A DNA stretch of 26,219 nt from a virus, in the IMG/VR virus record IMGVR_UViG_3300025132_000248, positions 1 through 26,219 of that record; one strand, written 5' to 3'. Shown piece by piece: positions 1 through 23,989 of the stretch. Within the stretch, counting starts at the first letter, position 1. Each line of letters begins with the position of its first letter. The position numbers and the translations under genes were made by a program. The notes under the pieces are model-generated. The model made no database searches. It had not been told where the DNA came from and saw nothing but the letters and a program-made list of their open reading frames with translations.

Positions 1-153
1 TAATGCATTCTGAGGTGTGCCTCCCCATGGCATTGCAACTATATGAATATCATATTTATTTGCTCTAATTAAAGCTGTAACTAAATCTCTTGTATGATTG
101 CCGTAACCAGATCTGGTTGCAATCGGTCCTTGAACTACTATATATGGTTTCAT
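1..153 (-). CDS. Glycosyltransferase, N-terminal fragment (cut by window edge)
   Basis: The first 51 codons of a minus-strand gene run off the left edge of the window. The translation begins MKPYIVVQGPIATRSGYGNH and continues with a Thr-Arg-Asp-Leu-Val helix and a strand ending in a Met-Pro-Trp-Gly segment. This Gly-rich SGYG loop after the first strand is what the N-terminal Rossmann half of GT-B (GT4-like) glycosyltransferases looks like. Its ATG overlaps the stop of the larger glycosyltransferase upstream (ATGA), so the two are translationally coupled and probably act on related sugars. The catalytic half is outside the window, so the family call is moderate. Confidence 0.6.
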   Translation of the reverse strand, partial: MKPYIVVQGPIATRSGYGNHTRDLVTALIRANKYDIHIVAMPWGGTPQNAL

Positions 154-1604
154 ACTATTCCTGGATTTTCTATTTTTTGTAACTGATTAATTTTATATAA
201 ACTAAATTTCTTTCTTTTTGTCCAATTATTTAAGCATGCGTCTATACATTCTATAAATCTTTCTGACATTCTTCTTGCAGACATATTTGATTCATTACCC
301 AATACCCACTCACGGCCATCTAATCCACATTCTACTCTTCTTTCTGGCATCATATTATACCATTCCAGAATTGCATTTCCTACATCTTTATGATTTGCTC
401 TATCATCAAATATATAAGGCGTCATTGGAGATCCTTGTAATGATATATTAGTTGGAAATACTGGTTTACACCAACTTGCATGATTTTTATACGTTCCTGC
501 ATGATTTGTAGAAAATTTAGTATCAAATTCAATCCAATCGCCTGTTGTATTTTCGAATCTACATCCATCTTGTAATCCTCCAGTTACATTATTGATTATA
601 GGAGTTCCTGCATGAAGTGATTCACACCATGAAATACCAAATCCTTCATTAGATGCTATGTTCAAAGTAACATCTGCCATATTATAATAGAAATTTAATT
701 GTTTTTGAGAAATACCTGAGTTACTAAATATTATATTACAATCAGGTGCAACTGCATTTTTAACGGCCATTAAATCAGTACCGTTAGGATCAGATATTTG
801 AGTATGCATTAATAAAGCACATTCAGAAGCTTTTTCTGGAGATAATTTATCACAAAAATCTTTAAACGCTAAAATAACATCGCCGGGCTGTTTTCTTCTT
901 ATATTTCTATTATTCCAAAATACTAAAAATTTATGCGGATGTTTCGAATGAAAATCTCTCTTAAAATTTTCATATTCAGAAGAATGTTCATGTAAGGTTG
1001 TTATAGGAAAATACTTTTTTTCGTTAACGCCATGCGGTACCCATTGTACTGCCCAATCTGGTTTAGGAAATTTTCTTAATACATTTTTAACTATATTTTG
1101 AGTTTGTCTAGATATGTTCATTATAAGATCACATGACTCATAGAAAGGCTCATTCCAAAATGGATATGGCAAATCATCCCAAATATTATAATACATAATA
1201 GGAACTAGTTGTCGTATTTCATGTTCTATTTGATACAACCATTGCCAGAATCTAGGATCTGTAAAATGCAATATTGCATCTGGCCTTTCCATATTCATTA
1301 CTTGGCCAAGTATTTGAGCATTACCGTATCCAGAACATGCATATATTTTAACATATGAATCTGTTATTCCAGCTTCTTTATTTACCTCATCAGACACATC
1401 AAATACTTTGCCTTCTTCTGGATGTTTAACTGCCGCGCCGATTTGTACCCAATCATACAAATGTGCTGTGCCTATGACAAATTCTTTAGCCATAGTTGCG
1501 ATCCCTGAATGTACTCTGATATCATCACATAACAGCAGAATTTTTTTCTTTTTTGGCTTGTTCGGATCGATTTTTTTTAATTTAGGTAACTCTATTTTTT
1601 GCAT
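150..1604 (-). CDS. Glycosyltransferase, GT-B fold (GT4/GT1-like)
   Basis: A 484-residue protein expected to transfer a sugar from an activated nucleotide-sugar donor. The N-terminal part has a first strand (KILLLCDD) followed by a HSGIATMAKEF segment typical of the acceptor-side Rossmann domain. The C-terminal part has the donor-side signature NEGFGISWCE followed by HAGTPII and a VTGG loop, which is the E-x7-E element of GT4 enzymes. There is no signal peptide or membrane segment, so it should be cytoplasmic. The gene lies between a SLOG-family gene and another glycosyltransferase with which it overlaps by ATGA. An AAGGAA element precedes the ATG. The acceptor cannot be read from sequence: DNA base, virion protein and host glycan are all possible. 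Confidence 0.85.
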   Translation of the reverse strand: MQKIELPKLKKIDPNKPKKKKILLLCDDIRVHSGIATMAKEFVIGTAHLYDWVQIGAAVKHPEEGKVFDVSDEVNKEAGITDSYVKIYACSGYGNAQILGQVMNMERPDAILHFTDPRFWQWLYQIEHEIRQLVPIMYYNIWDDLPYPFWNEPFYESCDLIMNISRQTQNIVKNVLRKFPKPDWAVQWVPHGVNEKKYFPITTLHEHSSEYENFKRDFHSKHPHKFLVFWNNRNIRRKQPGDVILAFKDFCDKLSPEKASECALLMHTQISDPNGTDLMAVKNAVAPDCNIIFSNSGISQKQLNFYYNMADVTLNIASNEGFGISWCESLHAGTPIINNVTGGLQDGCRFENTTGDWIEFDTKFSTNHAGTYKNHASWCKPVFPTNISLQGSPMTPYIFDDRANHKDVGNAILEWYNMMPERRVECGLDGREWVLGNESNMSARRMSERFIECIDACLNNWTKRKKFSLYKINQLQKIENPGIV

Positions 1605-4430: not shown

Positions 4431-5360
4431 TTATTTAAGTTCATTTAATATTTTGACAATTGTTGACATTATATGTAACTCTTTATCAACTGCAAATGCA
4501 TCTTGATATTGTGATTCAGCTAAGATTAATATAACGCTAGCAATATGACCTTTTGCATAATTATCTAACTCATCGAATAAATACTTATGTAGTGCTGAAA
4601 AATCTTTTACTTTACTATCTGCGATTAACTGTCTAATATCTTTAAATGCTGTTTTTTTATCACGATCGGATTTCAACATTTCTAACAGTTTAGTCATATA
4701 ATTGGCTTGTATAACACTTGTATCATCTATTTTAAGTTCTCCATCAATTACTTGCCTTTGACATGAATTAAGAACTCTTCTTATATCAGGATATCCTGCA
4801 TTGATAATAGTTGCTATATCCTTAGTATCATATTTGACTTGTAACTCATTTAAGATATTAACTATACGTTTAGCAACCTCCGTTTTATTAGGTGGAGTTA
4901 TACCAAATACTTGACATCTACTTTGAATAGGATCAATTATTTTTTCAACATAATTACATGTTAAAATAAATCTAGTTGTTTTTGAAAATGTCTCCATTAA
5001 GTTTCTTAATGCTGCCTGACCATTAGGAGTCATATAATCGGCCTCATCTAATATTACAATCTTCCATCGTTTGAACCCTACTGTACTAGCATAGTTCTTA
5101 ATTTTAGTTCTAACTGTTTCTATATTATTTTCATCTGATGCATTTATGTACATTAAATCGGCATCTACGTTATTTGCAATAATTTTTGCTAATGTAGTTT
5201 TACCTGTACCTGCTCCCCCATAAAATAATAAATGAGGAACATCTCCTGACTTAAGATATAATTTTACTTTATCTATGATATGTTCATTTCCGACATATCC
5301 ATCTAATGTTCCGGGTCTAAACTTTTCAACCCATAATGTATTTTCTTGATTTCCAAACAT
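4431..5360 (-). CDS. 44: Sliding-clamp loader ATPase subunit (T4 gp44 / RFC-like)
   Basis: A 309-residue AAA+ ATPase of the replication factor C / T4 gp44 family. Seen in order are the N-terminal LWVEKFRP motif (residues 9-16), Walker A GGAGTGKTT (48-56), Walker B ILDEAD (103-108), sensor 1 around LTCNY (133-137), and the SRC motif (147-149) supplying the trans arginine finger. The length matches T4 gp44 (319 aa). It hydrolyses ATP to open and load the sliding clamp encoded upstream in the same operon, together with the gp62-like subunit. All catalytic motifs are intact. Confidence 0.95.
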   Translation of the reverse strand: MFGNQENTLWVEKFRPGTLDGYVGNEHIIDKVKLYLKSGDVPHLLFYGGAGTGKTTLAKIIANNVDADLMYINASDENNIETVRTKIKNYASTVGFKRWKIVILDEADYMTPNGQAALRNLMETFSKTTRFILTCNYVEKIIDPIQSRCQVFGITPPNKTEVAKRIVNILNELQVKYDTKDIATIINAGYPDIRRVLNSCQRQVIDGELKIDDTSVIQANYMTKLLEMLKSDRDKKTAFKDIRQLIADSKVKDFSALHKYLFDELDNYAKGHIASVILILAESQYQDAFAVDKELHIMSTIVKILNELK

Positions 5361-5873: not shown

Positions 5874-6314
5874 TTATTTACCTGTCGAGCCATAACCGCC
5901 TTCGCCTCTTTCTGACTCTGTTAAATTTACTACTTCTCTTAATTGTACTTCTGGATATGGCATTACTACTAATTGGCCTATCCTATCTCCTTCTTCAAAT
6001 CTTTTTAATGATGCAAAAAAACTATTTTTATCAAATTTATATCTGAATGTTATTTCACCTCTATATCCTGAATCAACTACTCCTACACAATTAGCTAATC
6101 GAATATCGGTTTTAGATACAGATGATCTTGGAAATAATAATCCTACATGACCTTCTGGTATTTCAAATGCCAATCCTGTAAAGTATTCAATATAGTTATA
6201 ATCTTTATCTACTTTATAAGTAATACAACTAATATCTAATCCAGCATCGCCTTTTTTAGCATATGATGGAGTGACAGCTTTTTCTGATAATTTTTTAAAC
6301 TTTACTTGTATCAT
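5874..6314 (-). CDS. dut: dUTP diphosphatase (trimeric dUTPase)
   Basis: A 146-residue trimeric-type dUTPase that hydrolyses dUTP to dUMP and pyrophosphate, keeping uracil out of phage DNA and supplying dTMP precursor. All five family motifs are visible: GDAGLDIS, PRSSVSK, GVVDSGYRGEI, GDRIGQLVV and the C-terminal GEGGYGSTGK phosphate-binding tail. The length is normal for the family. The gene overlaps the sliding-clamp gene by ATGA, so it is translated with the replisome. Confidence 0.95.
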   Translation of the reverse strand: MIQVKFKKLSEKAVTPSYAKKGDAGLDISCITYKVDKDYNYIEYFTGLAFEIPEGHVGLLFPRSSVSKTDIRLANCVGVVDSGYRGEITFRYKFDKNSFFASLKRFEEGDRIGQLVVMPYPEVQLREVVNLTESERGEGGYGSTGK

Positions 6315-7027
6315 GTTGCCTGTAATTGTACTAAATAATATGTTGATGCATATGTTTTAGATGTAAATGTTACTTTACCTAAACCTGCTGCCGATACTTC
6401 TAATTTAGCTGTCTCTGCATCTTTATTAGCTTGTAATATTTCTTTAAAGCCGTTAGATGAAAAACATACAACATCCATATCATTCTGAGATGATGAATCA
6501 ACATTAAATTTAATTCTATTAGTATTTATTGATGAATAATTAATAATAAAATCTGTAATACCTTGTTTACTTTCTATACCAAAATTTTCTGATTCTGGAA
6601 TAGCATTTTTTGCTTTAATAAATTTAGTAGTAAACTCTTTTGTTAAGTCTACAGTAACATCCCAATCAGGTAATTGCTTTAGATCTGGCACTTGTCTTAT
6701 AACAGATAAATCGGCTAACATAAACTTCATATTAACATCTTTATCTTTCATATCTATACTAACGGCAGTGCCATCGACGTCATTAACTTTAACATCTAAA
6801 TCATCACTTACTGCAGTTAACATTTTTACTAGACCAGGAGTTGCATAAACACCTAATTCATGATCGCCCATATCCAAATTATTTGCAGTTATAGTTCCTA
6901 TAACATTTTGATCATCTGTTATAAATTTAGTTTCTAATGAACCTCCCTTTGCTGTCCATTTTACAGATGTAGTAGCTCCTGCTAAATGATATCTGTTTAT
7001 AAAATTTAATAATTCTTGTTTTTTCAT
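6311..7027 (-). CDS. 45: DNA polymerase sliding clamp (T4 gp45-like)
   Basis: A 238-residue protein close in length to T4 gp45 (228 aa). It is placed in the canonical 45-44-62 order, though with dUTPase, ParB-like and zinc-ribbon genes interposed. The N-terminus MKKQELLNFINRYHLAG and repeated strand-rich halves (for example GITDFIINYSSINTNRIKFN and GLGKVTFTSKTYASTYYLVQ) fit the two-domain clamp protomer that trimerises around DNA and tethers polymerase. The sequence is weakly conserved in this family, so the call rests on length, fold character and location next to the loader genes. It overlaps the DpdA-like gene by ATGA. Confidence 0.85.
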   Translation of the reverse strand: MKKQELLNFINRYHLAGATTSVKWTAKGGSLETKFITDDQNVIGTITANNLDMGDHELGVYATPGLVKMLTAVSDDLDVKVNDVDGTAVSIDMKDKDVNMKFMLADLSVIRQVPDLKQLPDWDVTVDLTKEFTTKFIKAKNAIPESENFGIESKQGITDFIINYSSINTNRIKFNVDSSSQNDMDVVCFSSNGFKEILQANKDAETAKLEVSAAGLGKVTFTSKTYASTYYLVQLQAT

Positions 7028-8274
7028 AGTTCTTGTTTTTCTTCAAAAAATTGATTAAATATATCTTTATTAATCGTTGTTATACTCTGTCCTCCAAACT
7101 TCTGATAGTATTGCTTATATTTTTCATAAGTTGTTATTGCCTTATCAGGATCTTCAAACATTTCGTATATACTTTTCAATACGGCAGCTAAATTATTTGG
7201 TACCATATATTGTGCAACATCTCTATGTGCTGCAACTATTTTATTTACTTCTCCAATAGTATTTTGAAATACATGTACATTATGTAATACCATTCTAGGA
7301 ACAGCTTCTTTATTATATTCTTCTAACATGCCCCATGTAAAATCTTGGCATGCTGGATCACCTAAACTATCTGGCACTAATGTATTATGCTGTAGATCCG
7401 GTATTTTAGATTCAGATAATGGAATTAGATTTCCATCTTTATCTTTGTCCGGCTTTGGCATATAAACATCACTAAAAGATAATTTCTTAAAATTATGTGA
7501 ATGCAAAAATGTTCCATATACAGGATATTGTCCTGGAGAACTTGAATCTGTAGTCACAGTTATTCTATTACCATAATGTTTATTTAATAACTTTTGCATT
7601 GTCGATAAAATAAAGAAATCAGATATTTTAGAAATACCTAACAAATGCAAATATTCTAAATTGGTATTTTCAAATTCTCTATTTTTTAACATTAGAGCTA
7701 ATGCCCACATAAAATCAACTAATTTTTGAGGACCTCCAATTGCCCATCCGGAGAATTCAAAATGCTTAAATTTATTATACCACCATTCATACTCTTGAGG
7801 ATTAGATCCTTGTAACATATTTAAGAACTTAGTTTTACCAGATTGATTTTTTTCAAACCAAGCAAAATTATCAAAACTAATATCTGCACATTCATAAAAT
7901 TTATTTTCATAAACTGTTTTAGGTGGTATATCTAAATTAGCTGCTACATCTGAATTAGCTTCTAACCAATGAAATATTTTTTCTCTTAGGTCATTACTAT
8001 ATTTTAATGCGCCTGTAGCAATTTGATATCCTCCGGAGTCTCCAAATACTAATACATCTTTTCCTAATCCCATCTGTTCTCGTATATCCATCTTCTTATA
8101 ATAGTGGCCTGCAGTAACTAGGAAGTATTTATGTCTCCATTCCTCAGGATACTCATCAGAATAGAATCTGCAAGGAACTCCGGAGGATAATTTTTCATCT
8201 TTTATTAATGCCGAAGCAAATCCGCCTGCTGATAATGACGGAAAATATATAAATTCTTTTTGTTTATTGCTCAT
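7024..8274 (-). CDS. dpdA: DpdA-like 7-deazaguanine DNA transglycosylase (TGT superfamily)
   Basis: A 416-residue member of the tRNA-guanine transglycosylase superfamily. Core TGT motifs are present with correct order and spacing: GDSGGYQ (Asp79 to Gln84, cf. DSGGFQ of TGT), LQGS (Gln155-Gly156), AIGGP (Gly180-Gly181, cf. GGL), LLGIS (211-215), and TTDSSSPG with Asp243 at the nucleophile position. The C-terminal zinc site of bacterial TGT is not clearly conserved, with only Cys309 and His331/His334 nearby. In phages such enzymes (DpdA) exchange guanine in DNA for a 7-deazaguanine base, protecting the genome from restriction. The gene sits between a glycosyltransferase (11-base overlap) and the sliding clamp (ATGA), in an operon of DNA-replication genes. 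With folE, queD and queE nearby, a DNA rather than tRNA substrate is favoured, but this is inference. Confidence 0.85.
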   Translation of the reverse strand: MSNKQKEFIYFPSLSAGGFASALIKDEKLSSGVPCRFYSDEYPEEWRHKYFLVTAGHYYKKMDIREQMGLGKDVLVFGDSGGYQIATGALKYSNDLREKIFHWLEANSDVAANLDIPPKTVYENKFYECADISFDNFAWFEKNQSGKTKFLNMLQGSNPQEYEWWYNKFKHFEFSGWAIGGPQKLVDFMWALALMLKNREFENTNLEYLHLLGISKISDFFILSTMQKLLNKHYGNRITVTTDSSSPGQYPVYGTFLHSHNFKKLSFSDVYMPKPDKDKDGNLIPLSESKIPDLQHNTLVPDSLGDPACQDFTWGMLEEYNKEAVPRMVLHNVHVFQNTIGEVNKIVAAHRDVAQYMVPNNLAAVLKSIYEMFEDPDKAITTYEKYKQYYQKFGGQSITTINKDIFNQFFEEKQEL

Positions 8275-9325
8275 TGAATAATACCTTTTTTAGTCCATTA
8301 CATGAAAAATAATTTTCATTTAAGAACGTTGTTAACTTATTTAAGTTTTTAGCATGATGATCATAATGTTCCATAAATTCTATGATCACTGTTATTAAAT
8401 TATCTTTATATTTTAAATATGATTCCCATGATTCTGTCCATATACTAGGATAAAAATAATCATCTGAATACATTTCTTTGTAACTTAATCTATTTGGAAC
8501 CATTGGAATAGCACCTGCCAAAGCACCTTCATAACATGAAATACCTAACGTCTCTTGTAGGTTTGCAGAAAATACTATCTTAGACCTTTCTAACAGACTA
8601 TGATACTCTGTCTTAGATAAATTTTGTTCTTGACATACTATGCATTTATATTCTTTTGGCAATGATTTAGCTAAATCTTTAAATATCTCTACTTGTTTTT
8701 CTGGAGCTATTCTATGAGGAAATAATATAATATTTTCTTTCTTTTGAGGAGTAAATGTCTTTTCTAAATACTCCATTGGCCAGCCTGTTCTGAAACATTG
8801 AATATCATCATACCCAAAATTATCTCTAAACATTTTTAAATGATCATCAGAAGCAAACCAATTATAATCTATAGTTTGTGCTAATGATTTTTCAAATGTT
8901 TTTACCCATTCATCTTTTATTAATCTACCTAAAAAATCGTTCGGATCATAATTACCAGCATGCCAAAGACCATGTATCTTAATCGGTATCTGCAATAATT
9001 GACTCATATACTTAAGTTGAATTATTGTGGGATTCCATGCATCTGTATAAATAAAATGATCTCCTTCTTTAACTTTGCCTTCACAGAATAATCTAGCAAT
9101 CTTTTGCATTTGAGCACTTTTATATATGTTAGTGCCTCCAAAATTTAAGAATGCTCCAGGAGTAGTTGCTTCTGGAATATTTGTAGGTCCTTCTATAACT
9201 TCTACTTCATGAGTTCCAAATGCATGTATTCTCATTAAATCAGGAAAATGATGCTTCCATTCTCCAGTATATCGACTTTCAACCGCTTCTAAGTCGACTA
9301 TCCAAATTGTATTAAGGTCTGTCAT
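8264..9325 (-). CDS. Glycosyltransferase, GT-B-like, overlapping dpdA
   Basis: About 353 residues from the ATG at 9325. The N-terminal half contains WIVDLEAVESRYTGEW, an FLNFGG loop and YTDAWNP. The C-terminal half has a donor-side fold with ILFPHRIAPEKQ, followed by VFSANLQETLGISCYEGALAG, which is the E-x7-E region of GT4-type enzymes. The overlap with the upstream gene is 14 bases; ATG at 9337 is an alternative start, while the longest frame would need a TTG at 9400. No signal or membrane segment is seen. Its tight coupling to the DpdA-like gene suggests it could decorate modified DNA, by analogy with T4 hydroxymethylcytosine glucosyltransferases, although a protein or glycan acceptor is equally possible. 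Confidence 0.75.
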   Translation of the reverse strand: MTDLNTIWIVDLEAVESRYTGEWKHHFPDLMRIHAFGTHEVEVIEGPTNIPEATTPGAFLNFGGTNIYKSAQMQKIARLFCEGKVKEGDHFIYTDAWNPTIIQLKYMSQLLQIPIKIHGLWHAGNYDPNDFLGRLIKDEWVKTFEKSLAQTIDYNWFASDDHLKMFRDNFGYDDIQCFRTGWPMEYLEKTFTPQKKENIILFPHRIAPEKQVEIFKDLAKSLPKEYKCIVCQEQNLSKTEYHSLLERSKIVFSANLQETLGISCYEGALAGAIPMVPNRLSYKEMYSDDYFYPSIWTESWESYLKYKDNLITVIIEFMEHYDHHAKNLNKLTTFLNENYFSCNGLKKVLFNEQ

Positions 9326-9761
9326 ATTTGTAATCATCTGGTGTAACATGTTGCATATTTTGTATACTTGTGCAATATAAAGAATAATCGCCATAAACAA
9401 CTTTTATACTATCATTCTTTTTTAATAATGCAATATCTGGATCTACCATCATATACATAATATGCGTTTTAATTCTAATCATTGGTGGTATCAAACTTAG
9501 TTTATCTGGCTCCACTTCTAAACTTACTGTTGTATTTTCATTATCAACAATATTATTGAGCGTATTCCAATTTATACTATACTTTGAAGCATCTGGATTT
9601 TTAATTAATTGTTCTACAGCTCCGGAACAGAAATAAATATGAGGCATCCTTTCACATTTACTTAAATCTAATCCTTTTATATCACAAATAAATAATGTTT
9701 CAACATCAGTTAATCTGCCTTCACATTCTTTACCATACCAATACTTTTTAAATCCTATCAT
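9312..9761 (-). CDS. Hypothetical protein, first gene of the dpdA-replisome operon
   Basis: A 149-residue protein with no recognised family. It is mixed alpha/beta, with several cysteines (CEGR, CDIK, CERM, FCSGA) that do not form an obvious metal site, a LEVEPDKLSLIPPMIRIKTH stretch, and a charged C-terminus. The ATG at 9761 lies about 12 bases below the -7 box of a promoter, making it the first gene of a roughly 6.8-kb transcription unit running through the glycosyltransferase, dpdA, clamp and clamp loader. The start is well determined by that promoter. Function unknown. Confidence 0.7.
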   Translation of the reverse strand: MIGFKKYWYGKECEGRLTDVETLFICDIKGLDLSKCERMPHIYFCSGAVEQLIKNPDASKYSINWNTLNNIVDNENTTVSLEVEPDKLSLIPPMIRIKTHIMYMMVDPDIALLKKNDSIKVVYGDYSLYCTSIQNMQHVTPDDYKYDRP

Positions 9762-9805: not shown

Positions 9806-12283
9806 TTAAAATGCAAAAAACTTTCCTAAATTATTATTTTTTGGAATAGAACCCCAATTCATCGCACTATAAAAATCTCCTAATTTATTTGCAAAAGCCG
9901 AATCAAATACTTTTTCATAATCTATATTCGTAGATACAAATTTTTCTATTTGTTCTGGATCCTCAAATCCTTTCATTGCCATAGTATCTAATCCCATAGG
10001 GTTTGATCTTAAATAAGTCCATTTAATTTTTTCGCCGTTACCTATTCCTTGAAATGTTTTAGTTAGTCCTAAATGTTTAATCATATCATTATAATTTAAT
10101 GCTGATTTTACATGTACTGGAGTACCTTTCATTCTTTCCCATTTTTTATTAGCACGGCCTGCATATTTTTTAACATTTTTTACTCCTACTGGAAACATGA
10201 CATCAATTAATGGTAATGACTTCATATGTTCTCTGAAATCTAATATCTTCTGATCTAAATCAGGTTTGTCAATATCATTTAACATGTCTTCTAATACTTG
10301 AGCCATAAATTTTCTAAATGAAGGAGGAAAGGATGATCGAACAACATCTAACCCTTTAACGTCTAATTTAGATACTGTATGTCCTTCTACATTTATAATC
10401 CACTGCGCATATCTTTTTTTAGCTATCCATAAACCTGCCTTAGCAACATTTTCTTGTTTGATATCAAATCTATGTTTATCAACATTATGAAATCTCTTAC
10501 CATATATATCATATGACTTATTGATAAATGATTGCACTTCATCAGCTATTTGAATAGTCTTATCTGCCATCCATTTTTCATTTGATATATCATAATCTGG
10601 ATATCTATGTTTTATTAATGGCAATGATGAAAAGAATGTTGAATCTGTATCTGTATAAATGCAATAATCTTTTTCTTTACCTAATTCTTTTTTATAATAT
10701 TGGTTACCTATATCTGCAGTAAACTTTATTAATTGTTGCCCTGTAGATGTAATAGCCGTTGCATTATCTGGATCAAAGAATCTGAATCCTGGATTGCCTA
10801 GTACTCCATAAAATGAATTCAAAAGAATTTTAGTTACTAATTGCATTCTATCAAAATATTCAGCTTTAGCTTCATTGCCCTCTTTTTCATACTGTTTACG
10901 TAAGTTTTTATATTCTACTCGCTCATTAAACCAATTATCTAATATTGATGGTAAAAATCCTTTTATTTGTGTATCATATACGACTCCGTTAGCTGCTATA
11001 GAGTATTTATTCTTTTCGAGATAATTTCTTAAGTCCTGAGCAGTTTCCCAGCCATTCCATTCATCTGAATAATGTGTACCTTTATTTTTGATATATGTCT
11101 GTCCATCAAAGGACTGTAATTTTGTAACTTTAGTTTCTGGAGATATATTAAGTGTCATTATAATACTAGGATATAGAGATGTTAGATCTAAATCATATAC
11201 CCATTTGTATCTACCTGGATTCGGTGCCTTAACAAATGCTCCTAATAAATTTAATTTTTCTTCTGATCTAGGCTTTTTACTAGGAGCCACAATATTAAGT
11301 CGTTTTAAATATACTAATGCTGCCCCATCTAAGTATCTTGTTGGAAATAAAAAGTCTTCATATGGTACATGGCCTTTATGACATATACTTCTTGCCAAAT
11401 CTATCAACTTCATTTTTTGATCTATTTCATATACAAGATCGACGTCATTCATATTATAATCTATATAACCTTGAATATCATTGCGTAATAAATCATCTAA
11501 TGAACCTTCGTATTTAATTTTACCTTTACCTAATTCTTTTTGAGATATTGCTTCTAATGAATAACTAGATTCTTGATTATATGTAAAGTTTTTATACAAT
11601 GCCATATAATCCAGGCATGATACGCCCGATATCCTATATCTATTTCTATGTTTAAGCCATATAACATCTTTAATAGGAGATAATGTTCTTGCACGGGATT
11701 CTCCTAAAACTTGAACCATTCTATTATAAAGATATGGAATATCAAAGAAATCTATATTCCATCCTGTTATAATGGTAGGTTGTATTTCATGATAAGAATT
11801 TAAAAAACGAGCTAATAATGTATTTTCGTCAGAACATGAAACTATAGAATATTTTTGAGAATGTTTATCTTGTACAACGCCTTCTTTATCTAATATCCAT
11901 ACACTTCGATGATCTCCTAATTCATCATATATTGCAATTGAAGTTATAGGATTCTGTGCTTCTTCCGGCGTAGGAAATCCTGTTGATATATCAACCTCTA
12001 TATCTATAAATAACGTTTTATGTCCTGTAGATGCATCATCAGAATCTGTATACATATCTATCAATGTACGAACTTCTGGATTTAAATCTGATTCATATAA
12101 GGTATGGTCATTAGGTTCAAATTCATAGATTTTTTCTACTTGTTTACCATCTAAAGCAACTAATTTGCCATATGATGATTTTTTATATGCGTAAGGTCTA
12201 TATTTTATTTTTAAATGACCTTTTTTATCATCCCATACATGTACTGTATTCGAATTTTTATGATATGCTACTGCTTGATACAT
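9806..12283 (-). CDS. 43: Family B DNA polymerase with 3'-5' exonuclease (T4 gp43-like)
   Basis: An 825-residue replicative DNA polymerase. The exonuclease domain shows Exo I IDIE (Asp94, Glu96), Exo II GWNIDFFD (174-181) and Exo III YNMND (Tyr276 to Asp280). The polymerase domain shows motif A DLDLTSLYPSI (364-374), motif B KILLNSFYGVLGN (485-497) and motif C YTDTDS (543-548), followed by a KKRY element. Both activities therefore appear intact. It is a little shorter than T4 gp43 (898 aa). It would work with the gp45-like clamp and gp44/62-like loader encoded in the next operon. The ATG overlaps the stop of a 51-aa membrane peptide (TAATG). Confidence 0.97.
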   Translation of the reverse strand: MYQAVAYHKNSNTVHVWDDKKGHLKIKYRPYAYKKSSYGKLVALDGKQVEKIYEFEPNDHTLYESDLNPEVRTLIDMYTDSDDASTGHKTLFIDIEVDISTGFPTPEEAQNPITSIAIYDELGDHRSVWILDKEGVVQDKHSQKYSIVSCSDENTLLARFLNSYHEIQPTIITGWNIDFFDIPYLYNRMVQVLGESRARTLSPIKDVIWLKHRNRYRISGVSCLDYMALYKNFTYNQESSYSLEAISQKELGKGKIKYEGSLDDLLRNDIQGYIDYNMNDVDLVYEIDQKMKLIDLARSICHKGHVPYEDFLFPTRYLDGAALVYLKRLNIVAPSKKPRSEEKLNLLGAFVKAPNPGRYKWVYDLDLTSLYPSIIMTLNISPETKVTKLQSFDGQTYIKNKGTHYSDEWNGWETAQDLRNYLEKNKYSIAANGVVYDTQIKGFLPSILDNWFNERVEYKNLRKQYEKEGNEAKAEYFDRMQLVTKILLNSFYGVLGNPGFRFFDPDNATAITSTGQQLIKFTADIGNQYYKKELGKEKDYCIYTDTDSTFFSSLPLIKHRYPDYDISNEKWMADKTIQIADEVQSFINKSYDIYGKRFHNVDKHRFDIKQENVAKAGLWIAKKRYAQWIINVEGHTVSKLDVKGLDVVRSSFPPSFRKFMAQVLEDMLNDIDKPDLDQKILDFREHMKSLPLIDVMFPVGVKNVKKYAGRANKKWERMKGTPVHVKSALNYNDMIKHLGLTKTFQGIGNGEKIKWTYLRSNPMGLDTMAMKGFEDPEQIEKFVSTNIDYEKVFDSAFANKLGDFYSAMNWGSIPKNNNLGKFFAF

Positions 12284-12438
12284 TATACTAATTCTTCTAT
12301 TATTCCTATTACTTCACTTAATATAAGTATAATTGCTGAAATTAACAAATTATATGGAATAAAAATGTATCCTAATATTCTTATAGCTGATTTAATAAAA
12401 CTTATTAGTTGATGTTTTTTTGCGTCCGGATACTGCAT
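12283..12438 (-). CDS. Small hydrophobic membrane peptide (51 aa) between hpt and DNA polymerase
   Basis: A 51-codon frame fits exactly between two genes, with TAATG overlaps at both ends (start 12438, stop 12285-12283). The translation begins MQYPDAKKHQLISFIKSAI and continues with one long hydrophobic segment (ILGYIFIPYNLLISAIILIL) ending in acidic SEVIGIIEELV. The precise double coupling and membrane-helix character argue that it is real. It could be an inner-membrane peptide, possibly tethering or a small effector, but no function is known. No known lysis-protein signature is seen. Confidence 0.75.
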   Translation of the reverse strand: MQYPDAKKHQLISFIKSAIRILGYIFIPYNLLISAIILILSEVIGIIEELV

Positions 12439-12944
12439 TAATTAATTTTATAAATGTTATTATAATTTCTTTTCAATGAATAATCATCTAAGCCATAGCC
12501 GACTATCCATTCATCTCCTATTTCGAAACAGTAATGATCTAAATTCATAAATGGCTCTTTACGTTGAACTAATGTAACTATAGTTACTTCATTTGGCACT
12601 CTCCCATTTACTGATTGTAATATTTCTAACATGGTAGCGCCTGTATCAATAATATCTTCAATAATATAAACACGTTTACCTTTTAGATCTATTTCAATAT
12701 CTTTAAGTATTTCTACTCCTCCCGAATTATCTTTGCCGTCATATGATTTAGCTCTAATAAAATCTACCTGCACATCTATAGACATATTCTTTACTAAATC
12801 TGTAAAAAACATAAATGCTCCATTTAAAACACAAATCATAACAGGCGGTAAATCATTACCGCTAGCTTTATGCTCATTACAAATACGATCGGCCATTTTT
12901 TTGACTTCTCGTTGTATATCTTCTTTATGTATTACAATTTCCAT
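12438..12944 (-). CDS. hpt: Hypoxanthine/guanine phosphoribosyltransferase
   Basis: A 168-residue type I phosphoribosyltransferase that converts hypoxanthine or guanine plus PRPP to IMP or GMP. The PRPP-binding loop VYIIEDIIDTGATM (residues 92-105), with the acidic pair Glu96-Asp97, is diagnostic. LNGAFMFFTDL, SYDG and a late VGYGLDD segment match Hpt enzymes. The ATG at 12944 aligns with the start of E. coli Hpt (MEIVIHKEDI... versus VEVMIPEAEI); the longest frame would require a GTG at 13001. It overlaps folE by 20 bases, so the two are translationally linked. That pairing suggests supply or recycling of guanine toward GTP, the FolE substrate. Confidence 0.92.
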   Translation of the reverse strand: MEIVIHKEDIQREVKKMADRICNEHKASGNDLPPVMICVLNGAFMFFTDLVKNMSIDVQVDFIRAKSYDGKDNSGGVEILKDIEIDLKGKRVYIIEDIIDTGATMLEILQSVNGRVPNEVTIVTLVQRKEPFMNLDHYCFEIGDEWIVGYGLDDYSLKRNYNNIYKIN

Positions 12945-13599
12945 AACCTCTGACGAATTCATAGTATTCATTTCTAGTTGCAGGATCATCTTTAAATGCA
13001 CCTGTTAATTTACTTGTTTTCATTGATGCGCCTCCATGCTTAACACCTCTACATGAAACACAATTATGAGTTGCATCTATCATAACTGCAACTCCTTTAT
13101 TATCATTAATAATAGTATCAATAGCATTATGTATAGCAACCGTTAATTGTTCTTGTATAGCACCTCTTCTACCAAAATGCTCTACCAATCTATTTAATTT
13201 TGATAATCCAATTACTTTACTATCTTTACCAGGAATATAAGCTACATGTACTCTACCCATAATAGTTTGATGATGATGAGAACACATAGATGTTAATGGA
13301 ATACCCCCTTCAAATACTATACCATCATATCCATCAGATGGAAATGCTGTAATATCAGGTGATCCATTATATCTGCCTGCCCATAAATCATTAACATATG
13401 CTTTTGCAACTCTTCTAGGAGTATCATTGGAATTTGGATCATTTCTCCAATCACATTCCAATGCATCTAAAAATTCGCCAAAGGCTTTTGCTGCCTTTAT
13501 TATCATATCATTTTTTTGATAATCATCTAATGGCCCGCTTTTTGCTATACCATTTGCGAATCCTTCTTTAACTAATTCAATTGTTTTCTTTGTTGTCAT
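12925..13599 (-). CDS. folE: GTP cyclohydrolase I
   Basis: A 224-residue enzyme converting GTP to 7,8-dihydroneopterin triphosphate, the first step toward 7-deazaguanines (and folate). Zinc and catalytic elements are visible: MCSHHHQT (Cys106, His108, His109), IGLSKLNRLVEHFGRR, IQEQLT, and THNCVSCRGV (His178, Cys180) followed by HGGASMKTS. The length is normal. A promoter-like element ends only 4 bases above the ATG, so the message may be essentially leaderless. It starts an operon with hpt, a membrane peptide and DNA polymerase. With QueD and QueE in the preceding operon, it most likely serves deazaguanine synthesis. Confidence 0.96.
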   Translation of the reverse strand: MTTKKTIELVKEGFANGIAKSGPLDDYQKNDMIIKAAKAFGEFLDALECDWRNDPNSNDTPRRVAKAYVNDLWAGRYNGSPDITAFPSDGYDGIVFEGGIPLTSMCSHHHQTIMGRVHVAYIPGKDSKVIGLSKLNRLVEHFGRRGAIQEQLTVAIHNAIDTIINDNKGVAVMIDATHNCVSCRGVKHGGASMKTSKLTGAFKDDPATRNEYYEFVRGYGNCNT

Positions 13600-13634: not shown

Positions 13635-13941
13635 TAACTCACACATTTTATTTATTTTTTTATTTTTTTATTTTATCTACTTTTTGATCTATTTTATTTA
13701 AAAGCTGATCTGCTCTTCTGTCTGCATTTCTATGTAATTCACCTAAGTCCACTTCCATATCACTTCTCAAGTTTGATATTTCTGTATACAAAGAATTTTC
13801 TGTTTCTGTTATTCTAACTGACAATTTTCCATATGCCCATACACATGCACCTACAAATGCACAAGCACTAATCGTAATTAAAACTATATATGTTGCTTCC
13901 ATAATTTATCCTCCTATTTACGGTGTGAGTTATTGTTTATA
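13625..13941. repeat. Inverted-repeat pair flanking the 80-aa membrane gene
   Basis: The left arm, 13625-13644 (TATAAACAAATAACTCACAC), and the reverse complement of 13923-13941 (TATAAACAATAACTCACAC) differ only by one extra A. The arms enclose the 80-aa gene and nothing else. The right arm overlaps the groES stop codon and the left arm overlaps the -33 box of the folE promoter. They could pair in RNA to form a long stem closing a 278-base loop, or mark the ends of an inserted cassette. Confidence 0.7.
13660..13902 (-). CDS. Small single-pass membrane protein with coiled coil (80 aa)
   Basis: An 80-residue protein with an N-terminal membrane helix (roughly residues 4-25: TYIVLITISACAFVGACVWA), then a charged, heptad-rich helix with LYTEISNLRSDM and LLNKIDQKVDKIKK. 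The topology resembles small phage proteins that sit in the inner membrane with a coiled-coil domain, such as spanin-like, holin-associated or superinfection-exclusion proteins, but none can be named. An AGGAGG ribosome-binding site 7 bases before the ATG is the strongest in the window, suggesting high expression. The gene is bracketed by an inverted repeat. Confidence 0.75.
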   Translation of the reverse strand: MEATYIVLITISACAFVGACVWAYGKLSVRITETENSLYTEISNLRSDMEVDLGELHRNADRRADQLLNKIDQKVDKIKK

Positions 13942-14233
13942 CAGATACCATTACAATTTCTGATTCATGCAATAGTAAATATTCTTCATTTTCTAATTTA
14001 ATTTTTTTATTCGATCCAGATTGATTTTTATGCAAAACTACTGTATCTCCAGGCTTGACTGTCATAGGTATTCTATTTCCTGTCTGAGTAAATAGTCCAG
14101 GACCTGTCGAAATAACATCTCCATATATATAATCATTTTCGACGCTATCTGGTATAATGATTCCTGATTTTGTTTTATCTATTTTTTCTTGTTCTTTAAC
14201 AAGAATTAAATCTCCAATTGGTTTTAATTTCAT
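13937..14233 (-). CDS. groES: GroES-type co-chaperonin (Cpn10)
   Basis: A 98-residue protein with the full Cpn10 pattern: N-terminal MKLKPIGDLILVKE, a mobile loop with KTKSGIIIPDS that contacts the GroEL apical domain, GDVISTGPG, VKPGDTVVLHKNQSG, and the C-terminal EEYLLLHESEIVMV. It should cap the host GroEL. T4 uses the unrelated-in-sequence gp31 for folding its capsid protein, so a similar head-protein role is plausible. The length matches cellular GroES (about 97 aa). It lies downstream of queD, queE and two tiny genes, with only 2 bases separating it from the second. Confidence 0.93.
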   Translation of the reverse strand: MKLKPIGDLILVKEQEKIDKTKSGIIIPDSVENDYIYGDVISTGPGLFTQTGNRIPMTVKPGDTVVLHKNQSGSNKKIKLENEEYLLLHESEIVMVSV

Positions 14234-14373: not shown

Positions 14374-14524
14374 AACTTAATCGTATTTCAGATAATAACT
14401 CCATTATTTCTTCTAATTTTAATCTTGATAACTGTCCTTCACACATATCTTGACAACATATATCTAAATTACGATGAATATATTGAAAATGTTCATCTAT
14501 TTTATTCCATTTTTCTTCTATCAT
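14363..14524 (-). CDS. Tiny Cys-Cys helical protein (53 aa), downstream of queE
   Basis: A 53-codon frame whose ATG overlaps the queE stop (ATGA). It begins MIEEKWNKIDEHFQYIHRNL, continues DICCQDMCEGQL, and ends in an acidic LKLEEIMELLSEIR helix. Three cysteines (CC plus C) might bind a metal or form disulfides. It resembles the following 45-aa protein in layout (helix, CC, helix). Unknown function; the position suggests co-regulation with the deazaguanine genes. Confidence 0.6.
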   Translation of the reverse strand: MIEEKWNKIDEHFQYIHRNLDICCQDMCEGQLSRLKLEEIMELLSEIRLSYDR

Positions 14525-15291
14525 ACTCCACGTTCTGTATCATATGCTATTATATGATCTCTACCGGTCATATTATAACCTGTTTCTGCTACCATTTCAA
14601 ATACTAATGGATACATTTTAACTAGTTGTTCTCTAGTATCTCCAGCTGGCATAACAAATGTCTTTTCTTTTGGAATATTCATTTCAACTCTAAATGCTTC
14701 TATCTCAGCTAAATTTTCGTCAGTACCATCCCATACTGGCTTGAAATGATAATCTTTATGATAATCAATAGTTTTTCTAATAGCATCCTTATTTAGTCTA
14801 AGTCTATTATGAACTTTAATCATTCGTTCATCAGCAACAGATCCATTTGGGGTAATAGCACCAAGTACAGGCACACTATTACTAAATTTAGGACTAAGAC
14901 TAATAAGATCCAAAGGAAAATCTGTTTCAAGAAAATGAGAGCCTTCTGTCTCAATCGTAACCAAAATGTTTCTTTCATTTGCAAAATGTGTTATTTCATT
15001 TACTAAAGCAGGATGCATTGTAGGCGAACCACCTGTTAACATCATTTCTTTTACTTGCGGATTTTCATCATATATTTTAATAATATCATTAAATGTAAAT
15101 GTACCTTTTTCTGGATGAATACTCGTATACCAACTATCACACCATCCGCCTTCTCCAAAATAACATCTATGAGTACAACCAGTTGTTCTAACTGCAATGG
15201 TAGGTCTTCCGAATCTGCTGCCTTCAGATTGAACACATCTATATACTTCTAAAACTGGAAGTATTTTATCATAATCTTCAATCCTCTTCAT
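14521..15291 (-). CDS. queE: 7-carboxy-7-deazaguanine synthase (radical SAM)
   Basis: A 256-residue radical SAM enzyme of the QueE family, converting 6-carboxy-tetrahydropterin to 7-carboxy-7-deazaguanine. Seen are EVYRCVQSEGSRFGRP (cf. QGEG...G), the cluster-binding segment GCTHRCYFGEGGWCD (Cys39, Cys43, Cys51), LTGGSP (SAM binding, 85-90) and IETEGS (113-118). The cysteine spacing is CX3CX7C rather than the usual CX3CX2C, reflecting a five-residue insert. The ATG at 15291 gives a 14-base overlap with queD; a TTG at 15327 would be the only longer option. An aromatic Trp precedes the last Cys as in canonical WCD. Confidence in family is high. Confidence 0.93.
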   Translation of the reverse strand: MKRIEDYDKILPVLEVYRCVQSEGSRFGRPTIAVRTTGCTHRCYFGEGGWCDSWYTSIHPEKGTFTFNDIIKIYDENPQVKEMMLTGGSPTMHPALVNEITHFANERNILVTIETEGSHFLETDFPLDLISLSPKFSNSVPVLGAITPNGSVADERMIKVHNRLRLNKDAIRKTIDYHKDYHFKPVWDGTDENLAEIEAFRVEMNIPKEKTFVMPAGDTREQLVKMYPLVFEMVAETGYNMTGRDHIIAYDTERGV

Positions 15292-15748
15292 AGATTGCTG
15301 TATTCTTTTTATTTTCAAAAAACTCAACTCTTGCTATACTTACTCTTCCATCAGTTTCTTCTTGTACAAATGCATCTAATTTTTTATAAATGTATTCTGC
15401 AAATCTTTCTGCTCCTACCGGGCCTGACATAGGTCTTAACTGAATAATACCTTTCATATGCATATCTTTGAATATTTCTATTTCTGGATCATCTTCTGCA
15501 ATAACTACTGTATGATCGAACATATAGTCCATCCATTGTTTTGCAGACATTCCATCTATTTTAGTTTTTGCTCTTTTCATTCCTCCGAAATCCCAAACCC
15601 AATTTCTATGATCTAATTGACCTTCGAATGTTACCTTAAACTCAATTGCATATCCATGTAAGAATCTACAATGAGTATTTTTTGCTTGCCATTGACGAAA
15701 TACTGTACTGAATCCGTCAAATATTTTTGTTGATTTAAACTTGCTCAT
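15278..15748 (-). CDS. queD: 6-carboxy-5,6,7,8-tetrahydropterin synthase-like protein
   Basis: A 156-residue protein of the QueD/PTPS family, expected to convert dihydroneopterin triphosphate into 6-carboxy-tetrahydropterin. Motifs include FRQWQA, the catalytic Cys plus zinc region HCRFLHGY (Cys27, His31, Tyr33), LDHRNWVWDFGGMK (45-58), FDHT (His79) and ERFAEY (Glu114). Canonical QueD has CxxxHGH, so the last His is Tyr here, and the upstream zinc His is not obvious. This divergent FRQW/HGY form is, from memory, also found in some bacteria and phages. It is directly upstream of queE with a 14-base overlap, which supports the assignment. Confidence 0.88.
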   Translation of the reverse strand: MSKFKSTKIFDGFSTVFRQWQAKNTHCRFLHGYAIEFKVTFEGQLDHRNWVWDFGGMKRAKTKIDGMSAKQWMDYMFDHTVVIAEDDPEIEIFKDMHMKGIIQLRPMSGPVGAERFAEYIYKKLDAFVQEETDGRVSIARVEFFENKKNTAIYEED

Positions 15749-16411: not shown

Positions 16412-17104
16412 TTAATCTATAACTTTTAAATATGAAAATAAGTATGGTTTATTAAGATAATGTTCTGTCTGATAATCAATATCTATCTTATCTAGACCAA
16501 AGAATTTTGCTTTGTATATTGCTTGATCATATTCATCTAAATTAATCCATTCCATTTTTCTATTTACAAATGAATCTCCTAATCGAGTCCATTCTGCAGA
16601 TAAAATATATTTTTCTAATTTGCTAACTATATCACAAAACTTATCATAATCTCTACAATCTAATTCTATATGAAATAATTCTATAACTTGAGATTCGTCT
16701 ATCCAATCAATTGCAAAATCTAATCCATATTTAGGTTTTGTAAATACTAACTTATTTAATTTTGGATTAGTTAATGACTCCCTTTCCAATTGATCTAATG
16801 CATCTCCGGAGAATCCAAATCTATGTAATATATGTGCATGATCAATAAAAATATTAGGATGTTCTTTTTCTTGAGTAAACCAATGTTGTAGAACTACATT
16901 TAATGCATCATCTGAAACTCTTCTTGCCATTCTATCTTCTGTATGAATATTAACTTCGTTGATAGCATGATAAGCTTTTTCAATACCATTTAATTGATAT
17001 CCTTCTCTATCAAAAAAATCAAGTTCCCAATCAGTATGAGATACTGGTAATGGTTTTGTTAATAGAAGATCTTTTATTATTTTAACGTTATTTTTTTGAA
17101 ACAT
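16412..17104 (-). CDS. Hypothetical protein (230 aa)
   Basis: Function not recognised. The ATG at 17104 (MFQKNNVKIIKDLLL) overlaps the upstream pterin-dehydratase-like gene by 17 bases; the longer frame would need a TTG at 17113. The protein is mixed helical with segments such as HTDWELDFFDREGYQ, FIDHAHILHRFGFSGDALDQL and FHIELDCRDYDKF. It has no membrane segment, signal peptide or metal-binding cluster. It is the last gene of its run before the promoter at 16360-16391. Confidence 0.7.
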   Translation of the reverse strand: MFQKNNVKIIKDLLLTKPLPVSHTDWELDFFDREGYQLNGIEKAYHAINEVNIHTEDRMARRVSDDALNVVLQHWFTQEKEHPNIFIDHAHILHRFGFSGDALDQLERESLTNPKLNKLVFTKPKYGLDFAIDWIDESQVIELFHIELDCRDYDKFCDIVSKLEKYILSAEWTRLGDSFVNRKMEWINLDEYDQAIYKAKFFGLDKIDIDYQTEHYLNKPYLFSYLKVID

Positions 17105-17459
17105 CTTTTGCAAATTCTATGTCTTTAGAAGTTACACCGTTATGAGAATGCGAATATATTTCAACAGTTACTGTATCATAGTTAAAAAATATATCCGGAT
17201 GATGATCTAGTTTTTCGGATATCTTCGCAACATCGTTTACAAACTTCATTGTTTTTTTATAATCATCAAATTTTCTAGTTGTTTTTATTTGAAATACTCC
17301 GGCCTTTACTTCTGCGGTCCAATCTTTAGCACCCGATCTAGATAATTCGCTAGTAATTTTATCGTTAGGAATAATGATAACATCTTCTTCTTGAGTATCA
17401 GTTAATCGGCTTACGCCTCTAAGTACAGGGGATTGTTCTAATAATGTTTTGAGTTTCAT
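17088..17459 (-). CDS. Pterin-4a-carbinolamine dehydratase-like protein
   Basis: A 123-residue protein whose last 80 or so residues match the PCD/DCoH fold. It has DWTAEV (Trp47), a TRKFDDYKKTMKFVNDVA helix, the active-site motif HHPD (86-89), VTVEIYSHSHNGVTSKD (His104, His106), then EFAKDV. Canonical enzymes read HHPx...THxxxGLTxxD, so Thr is Ser here. The family dehydrates 4a-hydroxytetrahydropterins. A roughly 30-residue N-terminal extension (MKLKTLLEQSPVLRGVSRL) is unusual. The gene is coupled by TAATG to the 333-aa gene. With FolE and QueD nearby, a role in pterin or deazaguanine chemistry is attractive but unproven. Confidence 0.85.
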   Translation of the reverse strand: MKLKTLLEQSPVLRGVSRLTDTQEEDVIIIPNDKITSELSRSGAKDWTAEVKAGVFQIKTTRKFDDYKKTMKFVNDVAKISEKLDHHPDIFFNYDTVTVEIYSHSHNGVTSKDIEFAKDVSKK

Positions 17460-19702: not shown

Positions 19703-20824
19703 TTAAAAAATTATGTAATTTAGTCCAATACTGAAATCATGCCATTGTCTATTCCAGTATTTATTATATTTTCCTTCAACAAACACTCCTAAATGTTTAT
19801 TAAATTTATGTCCTAATATAAAGCCTGCCCCAAAATCTATCCATGTTTGTTTAGGAGCTATAAATTTATGATATGCATATGTTCCAGTTTCTAAATGAAA
19901 TGGCATAATACTTGCCCATGAATGCAACCAAAATGTTTTTGTATAATGATAAAAATCATAGCCAGCTACCAATGAATGATTCCATTGTTGAGGTATTTCA
20001 TTTTTCTTTCTTTCAACATAATCAGATAATACTTGAGGTATAACTACTTCTTCCCAAATTATGCTATTATCAGCAACTACTTCGCCTTCAGGATTTAAAT
20101 AATTTATTTCGCCGTTAGGTAAGAAATCTACATTATATCCTTCTTGTAATGCTAATGATGTATAATGTAAACTACCATTTGGTAATATAAATTCTTGTAA
20201 TGGATTATATCCATATGGTTCAGATATTCTTTGAACTATACCTATATTCCAAGAAAACTTATTACCTACTTTTTGTCTATATCTTTGAGATGATTCAAAA
20301 TATTTTATATCTGCAAAACCTTGTTGCATATACTCTACCTTTACAATCCAATGGTCAGCTACATATCTTAAAAAATGTTGTTGATCTAAAAATGTATTTC
20401 CAAATCTTCGTTTCCAATCTACTTCAAATAAAAATTCAAATCCAGATACTTTACCTATTGTAGCCGCATCTGCATATGAATGTTCTTCGCCATTATAAAA
20501 TACAGCTTGCCTATTTTCATATCCAAATCTAGCTATTTTTCTTACTCCGGCTACTATAGAATAATCAAATGGTGTTTCTTCTGTATTAGTAATTAATTGT
20601 CCTGTACTAACTGAATACTGATCAACATCTGCTATACTATTATTGCCATTTACTGCTCCATAAAAAGTAGCAAATTTAATTGCTTTTTTAAACTTTTTAT
20701 CAAAGTCTTCAAATGGCTTCCACTTTTCTTTTTCTTTATTCCATGATTCGGTTTCACTAGTTACAGTAAACTGACTAAATATAATAGATGGCAATAATGT
20801 TAATATTAATAAAATTCTAATCAT
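19703..20824 (-). CDS. Putative outer-membrane beta-barrel protein
   Basis: A 373-residue protein with a Sec signal peptide (MIRILLILTLLPSIIFSQF). The mature part alternates aromatic/polar residues as amphipathic strands, for example FDYSIVAGVRKIARFGYENR, KFSWNIGIVQRIS and LGVFVEGKYNKYWNR. It ends in LNYIIF, with the terminal Phe typical of BAM-assembled barrels. It most likely inserts in the outer membrane of the host. No TonB or SprF/PorP signature was recognised. It overlaps the T9SS-signal repeat protein by ATGA, so the two are made together and may act together at the cell surface. Confidence 0.7.
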   Translation of the reverse strand: MIRILLILTLLPSIIFSQFTVTSETESWNKEKEKWKPFEDFDKKFKKAIKFATFYGAVNGNNSIADVDQYSVSTGQLITNTEETPFDYSIVAGVRKIARFGYENRQAVFYNGEEHSYADAATIGKVSGFEFLFEVDWKRRFGNTFLDQQHFLRYVADHWIVKVEYMQQGFADIKYFESSQRYRQKVGNKFSWNIGIVQRISEPYGYNPLQEFILPNGSLHYTSLALQEGYNVDFLPNGEINYLNPEGEVVADNSIIWEEVVIPQVLSDYVERKKNEIPQQWNHSLVAGYDFYHYTKTFWLHSWASIMPFHLETGTYAYHKFIAPKQTWIDFGAGFILGHKFNKHLGVFVEGKYNKYWNRQWHDFSIGLNYIIF

Positions 20825-23940: not shown

Positions 23941-23977
23941 CAAATCTCCATTTATCATAAATATATGAAAACCCAAC

Positions 23978-23989
23978 AAAACCGGTTTT
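23978..23989. promoter_or_regulatory. 12-bp perfect palindrome upstream of the T9SS-signal protein
   Basis: AAAACCGGTTTT is its own reverse complement, located 38 bases upstream of the ATG at 23940. A TATATTTA box (23965-23958) lies between them. With no loop it cannot form a hairpin, so a dimeric regulator site is the main idea. A matching -33 box at the usual spacing is absent. Confidence 0.3.

Follow-up and report, generated by a model that had tools for sequence, protein, structure and literature searches.

Linkage of a viral glycosyltransferase to a DpdA-like transglycosylase and possible sugar decoration of 7-deazaguanine in phage DNA

The gene pair and its two proteins

The stretch analyzed here, positions 1 to 26,219 of the IMG/VR virus record IMGVR_UViG_3300025132_000248 (26,219 nucleotides, referred to as the window), carries on its minus strand a gene for a glycosyltransferase (GT) at 8264..9325, which overlaps a gene for a DpdA-like DNA guanine transglycosylase at 7024..8274 (minus). 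The two are functionally linked, as shown by their joint occurrence in viral contigs, complete phage genomes and bacterial contigs. The GT open reading frame (ORF) runs from an ATG at 9325 to 8264 and encodes 353 residues, and that of the DpdA-like protein starts with ATG at 8274, ends at 7024 and encodes 416 residues. The overlap of 11 bases (8264-8274) is exactly that given in an earlier note on this DNA. Both genes belong to a minus-strand run of ORF149, GT, DpdA-like and clamp-like genes with overlaps of 14, 11 and 4 bases, followed by a dUTPase and a clamp loader, so that the pair does precede clamp and clamp loader, as the same note had read. Since the overlaps are tight, co-transcription is likely. 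The shared promoter proposed in the note was not established: 48 promoter-like matches were counted against 43.1 ± 6.2 in shuffled sequences, which is chance level.

The GT was assigned from the ORF call, the Pfam family Glycos_transf_1, a structure model and invariant residues. Glycos_transf_1 matched the window protein with E = 2.4e-5 and 24.4 bits (curated cut-off 26.4) and its homologue in Xanthomonas phage X1 with 45.5 bits, over the cut-off; no match to the window GT was obtained in PHROGs or NCBIfam. The model, based on an alignment of 65 homologues, had a mean pLDDT of 92.9 and a pTM of 0.90. Its closest folds in the PDB were sucrose-phosphate synthase (Z 25.6), BshA (Z 24.5, superposed over 306 residues at 3.0 Å) and MshA (Z 24.1), at sequence identities of about 8-14%. 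The top 50 PDB entries were all glycosyltransferases or close GT-B relatives (Z 20.4-25.6, about 280-330 residues), tetrahydrobiopterin glucosyltransferase was also among the structural neighbors, and the best viral predicted-structure match was the homologue of Acidovorax phage ACP17 (TM about 0.9). H122, R205, K210 and E258-x7-E266 are invariant in the 65 homologues; in GT4 enzymes, catalytic roles are assigned to such a His, to Arg/Lys (nucleotide diphosphate) and to the E-x7-E motif. The model thus describes an intact GT-B enzyme of the GT4 type for which retention is predicted, and the earlier description as GT-B-like was correct. The absence of transmembrane segments from the GTs was likewise borne out, the highest 19-residue Kyte–Doolittle mean among the proteins tested being 1.14.

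Where the note had looked to the GTs of phage T4, the type of enzyme turned out to be different. Pfam families of T4-type DNA GTs (alpha-GT, beta-GT and TET-associated GT) did not match the window GT at E ≤ 1, four distant homologues at E ≤ 0.5 or the 65 family members at E ≤ 0.01. Homology to T4 alpha- or beta-GT was therefore dropped, and the window protein stands nearer to the retaining GT4 enzymes BshA and MshA. The likeness to the T4 enzymes is one of function, a phage GT that adds a sugar to a modified DNA base (PMC13216743), which is here predicted; the T4 acceptor is hydroxymethylcytosine, whereas here it would be a deazapurine. BshA and MshA, the N-acetylglucosamine transferases of bacillithiol and mycothiol synthesis, share the near fold and the E-x7-E layout; they differ in their low identity to the window GT, about 10-14%, and in their context, which is thiol synthesis and not 7-deazaguanine DNA modification.

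For the DpdA-like protein, the family conserves a TGT-type DSGG(Y)Q motif at residues 79-84 (D79, Q84), and D243, at the position of the TGT nucleophile, is invariant, as is D115. Pfam TGT detected 14 of 14 controls and matched neither the window protein nor any protein of the GT phages. Since this model is blind to the subfamily, the assignment relies on motifs, on a profile search and on the TIGR00449 match of one homologue. The profile found as its sole matches in the PDB 27 TGT sequences, weakly (E 0.5-0.9); the ACP17 homologue matched TIGR00449, the TGT superfamily model, with E = 4.6e-7, below the cut-off; and the X1 homologue is annotated as queuine tRNA-ribosyltransferase. On these sequence criteria, the protein is classed as DpdA-like, a probable DNA guanine transglycosylase with predicted base insertion. 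The earlier DpdA-like call was right by the TGT motifs, though Pfam TGT misses the protein.

A TGT-like protein could also be a tRNA enzyme, in which case the GT would glycosylate a queuosine-type tRNA base in the manner of animal QTMAN/GTDC1. 7-Deazaguanine is used in both systems, QTMAN too places a sugar on a 7-deazaguanine-derived base, and the C-terminal half of the GT may resemble GTDC1. Nevertheless, the DpdA homologues do not keep the zinc cysteine cluster of TGT and are sited with DNA polymerase and clamp genes, QTMAN acts on the cyclopentenediol of tRNA queuosine, and neither Pfam (E ≤ 1) nor NCBIfam listed a Q-tRNA mannosyltransferase family among the matches of the GT. No queuosine enzyme of the QueA or QueG type occurs among the recurrent neighbors, nor was QueF found. 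The chance that the pair serves tRNA is accordingly considered very slight.

Linkage of the pair in viruses and bacteria

With the GT protein as the query, 17 close relatives were obtained, all 17 accompanied by DpdA. A GT profile search found relatives encoded in at least 598 viral contigs, of which the best 80 were examined; removal of GTs more than 95% identical left 71 loci. With this GT-only query, viral loci having 5 kb on each side contained DpdA in 35 of 35 cases, QueE in 34 and FolE in 32; QueD, too, is a usual neighbor. DpdA was missing from 11 of the 71 loci, and in these the GT always lay within about 3.5 kb of the upstream end of the contig. In contigs of bacterial and archaeal genome assemblies, metagenome-assembled genomes among them, DpdA was present at all 10 GT loci with 5 kb on each side, the bacterial genera including Magnetospirillum, Shimia, Devosia and Sulfitobacter. 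The reverse search, starting from the DpdA subfamily, found the GT, after deduplication, in 19/19 loci that extend at least 5 kb to either side and in 31/35 that extend 3 kb.

Since the queries held no information on the partner gene, the linkage is not built into the searches. Models lacking the clade of the window recovered the window GT (E = 2.9e-154) and DpdA (1.2e-46) and no further window protein; a PA5oct-type GT used alone as a query against the viral contigs found nothing. Conservation of the gene pair, one of the checks proposed in the earlier note, was thus observed in both search directions.

Among 50,697 phage records searched by tblastn, the GT was found in 20, which we grouped into six lineages. 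One representative of each was checked, and DpdA was present in 6/6: Pseudomonas phage PAC2 (PA5oct-like), Sinorhizobium phage Phosso, Acidovorax phage ACP17, Xanthomonas phage X1, Synechococcus phage BUCT-ZZ01 and Xanthomonas phage PhiXhv-12. The order is DpdA then GT in PAC2 and ACP17, and likewise in BUCT-ZZ01 with one gene between them; it is GT then DpdA in the window and X1, and the two genes are far apart in Phosso and PhiXhv-12. Inherited synteny alone hardly accounts for an adjacency that was reached through differing arrangements. The GT of BUCT-ZZ01, at 21% identity, clusters with QueE, QueD, FolE, phosphoribosyltransferase, DpdA and a second GT. In this genome, DpdA sits between two different glycosyltransferases (L140:3010-7167). 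In Phosso, the second gene upstream of the GT is annotated as a glycosylase.

The surroundings of the GT bear on another explanation, in which its targets are virion proteins or surface glycans of the host and its place next to DpdA merely reflects a common replication block. GT4 enzymes often serve polysaccharide synthesis, glycosylation of structural proteins is known from phages, and synteny of the whole block is conserved in the window-like clade. Clamp and polymerase homologues recur near the GT in 68 of 90 clustered loci, and phosphoribosyltransferase in 53 of the 90. However, the recurrent neighbors are replication and Que genes and not structural or surface genes, phage lineages that are unrelated and differ in gene order keep the pair, and it also occurs in bacterial contigs whose examined stretches hold no phage replication block. 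Together with the lack of a membrane segment, this makes a virion or surface acceptor improbable.

Still less credit is given to a different DNA base as the acceptor, for instance a hydroxymethylpyrimidine, with the 7-deazaguanine genes serving a parallel modification. The known phage DNA GTs do act on hydroxymethylcytosine (PMC13216743), but the link found here is specific to DpdA and Que genes, and no gene of the pyrimidine hydroxymethylase type was seen among the recurrent neighbors on inspection, which did not include a family search.

Several alphaproteobacterial genome contigs carry the pair (L117, L120, L121, L124, L113 and L125); L121 also has a queuosine-precursor transporter-like gene, and L117 and L121 have tyrosine-recombinase-like genes. 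Such contigs are possibly bacterial islands with glycosylated 7-deazaguanine DNA. HhH-GPD-type DNA glycosylase genes stand in some GT clusters (L104:4691-5128 and 12 loci; L020:5011-5544).

Precursor, sugar and neighboring genes

The known 7-deazaguanine DNA modification systems likewise cluster FolE, QueD, QueE and a TGT-like DpdA and replace guanine in phage DNA (Hutinet 2019, PMC6884629). Their gene set includes QueC, and a GT partner is unmentioned in that paper; the present clusters add the GT, their DpdA is too divergent for Pfam TGT, and QueC is mostly missing. It was not found in the complete genomes of PAC2, Phosso, ACP17 and BUCT-ZZ01, and the candidate of X1 was rejected, its weak hit being NadE. 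PhiXhv-12 has a Gat-QueC, hence five of six GT phages are without QueC. None of 14 large GT contigs gave a QueC match over the cut-off and none was seen in the window, a 26-kb viral fragment of uncultivated origin; candidates in some contigs turned out to be NadE or weak PP-loop proteins, and a further contig, G004, holds a weak PP-loop candidate. DpdA phages without the GT (GR7B, Lauda, 2.275.O and NCTB) have QueC in 4/4 cases. The difference between 1/6 and 4/4, in a small sample, suggests that the GT goes with the precursor 7-carboxy-7-deazaguanine (CDG). The base offered may thus be CDG, which a host QueC could still convert. CDG has already been raised as a possible base for the QueC-less phage Bipper (Hutinet 2019, PMC6884629).

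Regarding the sugar, a UDP-glucose/GDP-mannose dehydrogenase (UDPG_MGDP_dh, E = 3.6e-16) is encoded in about 10 of the 35 GT loci that have 5 kb of flank on both sides; the Gfo/Idh/MocA type of gene and the alcohol-dehydrogenase-like type occur in about 10 of 35 each, and a short DegT-type aminotransferase in 13 GT loci. PAC2 has an epimerase-fold gene, and no sugar-nucleotide gene was recognized in the window itself. These genes point to tailored nucleotide sugars in some of the phages. In PhiXhv-12 (L139:3669-6903), the distant GT relative adjoins the Gat-QueC fusion and a PIG-L-type deacetylase, the latter comparable to MshB and BshB, which act after MshA and BshA; this trio suggests an amino-sugar on an archaeosine-type base.

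The precursor genes of the window are all on the minus strand: QueE, the CDG synthase, at 14521..15327 (phrog_2076, E = 1e-47; TIGR03365, E = 6.5e-15, below the cut-off), QueD, a 6-carboxytetrahydropterin synthase, at 15278..15748 (PTPS, E = 2e-15; phrog_2389, E = 4e-38) and FolE, GTP cyclohydrolase I, at 12925..13599 (PF01227, E = 9e-46). A hypoxanthine-guanine phosphoribosyltransferase-like gene occupies 12438..13001 (minus; TIGR01203, E = 1.8e-41, below the cut-off). Three further types of gene are recorded near these functions. A pterin-4a-carbinolamine dehydratase at 17088-17459 (minus, E = 2e-22) shares the window with FolE and QueD. A protein of 125 residues with QueD-like motifs (phrog_17812; L048:6650-7030 and 72 loci) stands beside the GT, also where a normal QueD exists; the short recurrent gene labeled QueDs is QueD-like by motif only (probability 10.8, against 0.2 for controls). 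A cupin/cysteine-dioxygenase-like protein (phrog_4786; L050:11068-11541 and 50 loci) recurs in GT clusters and could act on the base or on its carboxyl group.

ORF149 (9312..9761, minus), which overlaps the start of the GT gene by 14 bases, encodes a small conserved protein and is a probable recurrent partner. In dozens of viral loci, a member of its family adjoins the GT/DpdA pair or lies not far from it (58-member alignment), and neither Pfam nor PHROG gave it a function. In profile–profile comparison, the window ORF149 matched the wider family with a probability of 77.6 (E = 1.9e-5; controls ≤ 0.9), and an HMMER profile without the window clade missed it; ORF149 counts in the wide GT search come from a model built on both clades, which biases toward a match. 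The fold model had a pLDDT of 90, with three QueE structures among its best matches at Z values of 5.8, 5.7 and 5.2, weak by the threshold of 8. Given these Z values and a profile comparison that yielded less than 1% probability, a truncated QueE was not adopted and is kept as a lead. ORF149 may be a third component of the GT–DpdA system.

The replication genes flank the pair. The gene at 6311..7027 (minus) matches only phrog_12062, of unknown function, and was assigned as sliding clamp-like because annotated clamps occupy the syntenic position in PAC2 and Phosso and because the clamp loader is close by, at 4431..5360 (minus; phrog_168, E = 7e-84). A family B DNA polymerase, recognized from its own sequence and from similarity to annotated polymerases, lies upstream of the pair at 9806..12283 (minus). 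Of the two additional GTs placed by the earlier note at the left end, one is a full gene (GT2, 150..1604, minus, Glycos_transf_1 above the cut-off) and the other, at 1..153 (minus), is only a possible GT start, an N-terminal piece of 51 residues read as a GT by eye and unmatched in Pfam. GT2 was present in only 4 of the 71 deduplicated loci and is therefore not a regular companion of the DpdA pair but a separate matter.

Two other genes of the window are recorded here. A phage-encoded GroES-like Cpn10 (13937-14233, minus, E = 8e-25) lies between QueE and FolE. A protein of 1052 residues (20821-23979, minus) has repeated C-D-P-x-A-x-N-Y-N motifs and a terminal Por_Secre_tail domain (E = 9e-14). 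The type IX secretion system of Bacteroidota uses this domain as its sorting signal, and finding it in a viral contig suggests that the host is a member of the Bacteroidota.

A candidate sugar-decorated 7-deazaguanine

The reading we prefer, with a probability of roughly 0.7, is that the GT puts a sugar on the 7-deazaguanine installed by DpdA in phage DNA, where acceptor, sugar, timing and benefit are what we infer. FolE, QueD and QueE would make CDG, or preQ0 where a QueC of host or phage is available, and DpdA would exchange guanine in DNA for CDG or preQ0. With a nucleotide sugar as donor, the GT would then glycosylate the position-7 group of the installed base, perhaps close to the replication fork. 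A coupling with replication is plausible, since the pair is flanked by clamp and polymerase genes and these recur near the GT; the alpha-GT of T4 acts together with the replisome (PMC13216743). The UDP-glucose dehydrogenase, the Gfo/Idh/MocA protein and the aminotransferase would tailor the sugar in a subset of phages, and the phosphoribosyltransferase may recycle the guanine released by DpdA. The likely benefit would be a shield from restriction enzymes and from those host glycosylases which recognize the bare modified guanine. Dag1 and Dag2 are reported as bacterial glycosylases with cleavage of modified guanine (cited in PMC13216743).

The same genes could work in the other order, the GT glycosylating the free 7-deazaguanine or a pathway intermediate and DpdA then inserting the sugared base, with the same end product. 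The GT–DpdA linkage fits this equally, and the structural neighbors of the GT use small molecules (malate for BshA, inositol phosphate for MshA, and tetrahydrobiopterin glucosyltransferase). On the same side, queuine, a bulky base, is a substrate of eukaryotic TGT. The T4-type precedents, however, suggest action on DNA, and the free-base order is judged unlikely.

Some observations weigh against sugar transfer onto the installed base. The GT is acidic overall, with a net charge of −11, and no obvious DNA-binding signature was seen in it. Not all clusters have sugar-nucleotide genes, each type being present in about 10 of 35. The counts of the wide searches rest on the 80 best-scoring loci per search and cover this GT and DpdA subfamily, not all DpdA. 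We know of no 7-deazaguanine in DNA that bears a hydroxyl like that of T4 hydroxymethylcytosine, and the acceptor would have to be a carboxylate, an amide or an amine. Finally, the substrate of the GT could be the free base or some other molecule. From the earlier proposal that the GT decorates the modified base, what stands is that it works with DpdA, as indicated by the linkage, the complete phages and the sugar-nucleotide genes; a DNA base as its acceptor is the part that we infer.

Taken more broadly, there is slightly better than an even chance of a widespread DNA hypermodification, in which the DpdA–GT pair places a sugar (in some phages a hexuronate or aminosugar) on 7-deazaguanine and in which QueC-less phages perhaps carry a CDG glycosyl ester. 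The parts of this proposal differ in standing: the sugar on the deazaguanine is held to be at least as probable as the whole, and likelier than the ester, whose formation through the 7-carboxyl group of CDG is doubtful.

Neither a GT–DpdA link nor a sugar on 7-deazaguanine DNA was found in the literature searched, the coverage of which is incomplete, so that a prior description is possible. To our knowledge, sugar-decorated DNA bases have been described only on pyrimidines. If the proposal is correct, 7-deazaguanine with a sugar attached would represent a chemically new class of DNA base, and phages would gain a second layer of counter-defense. The pair would span at least 598 viral contigs with GT relatives, cultured jumbo phages such as PA5oct and bacterial chromosomal islands, and a likely function would be supplied for a GT family unmatched in PHROGs.

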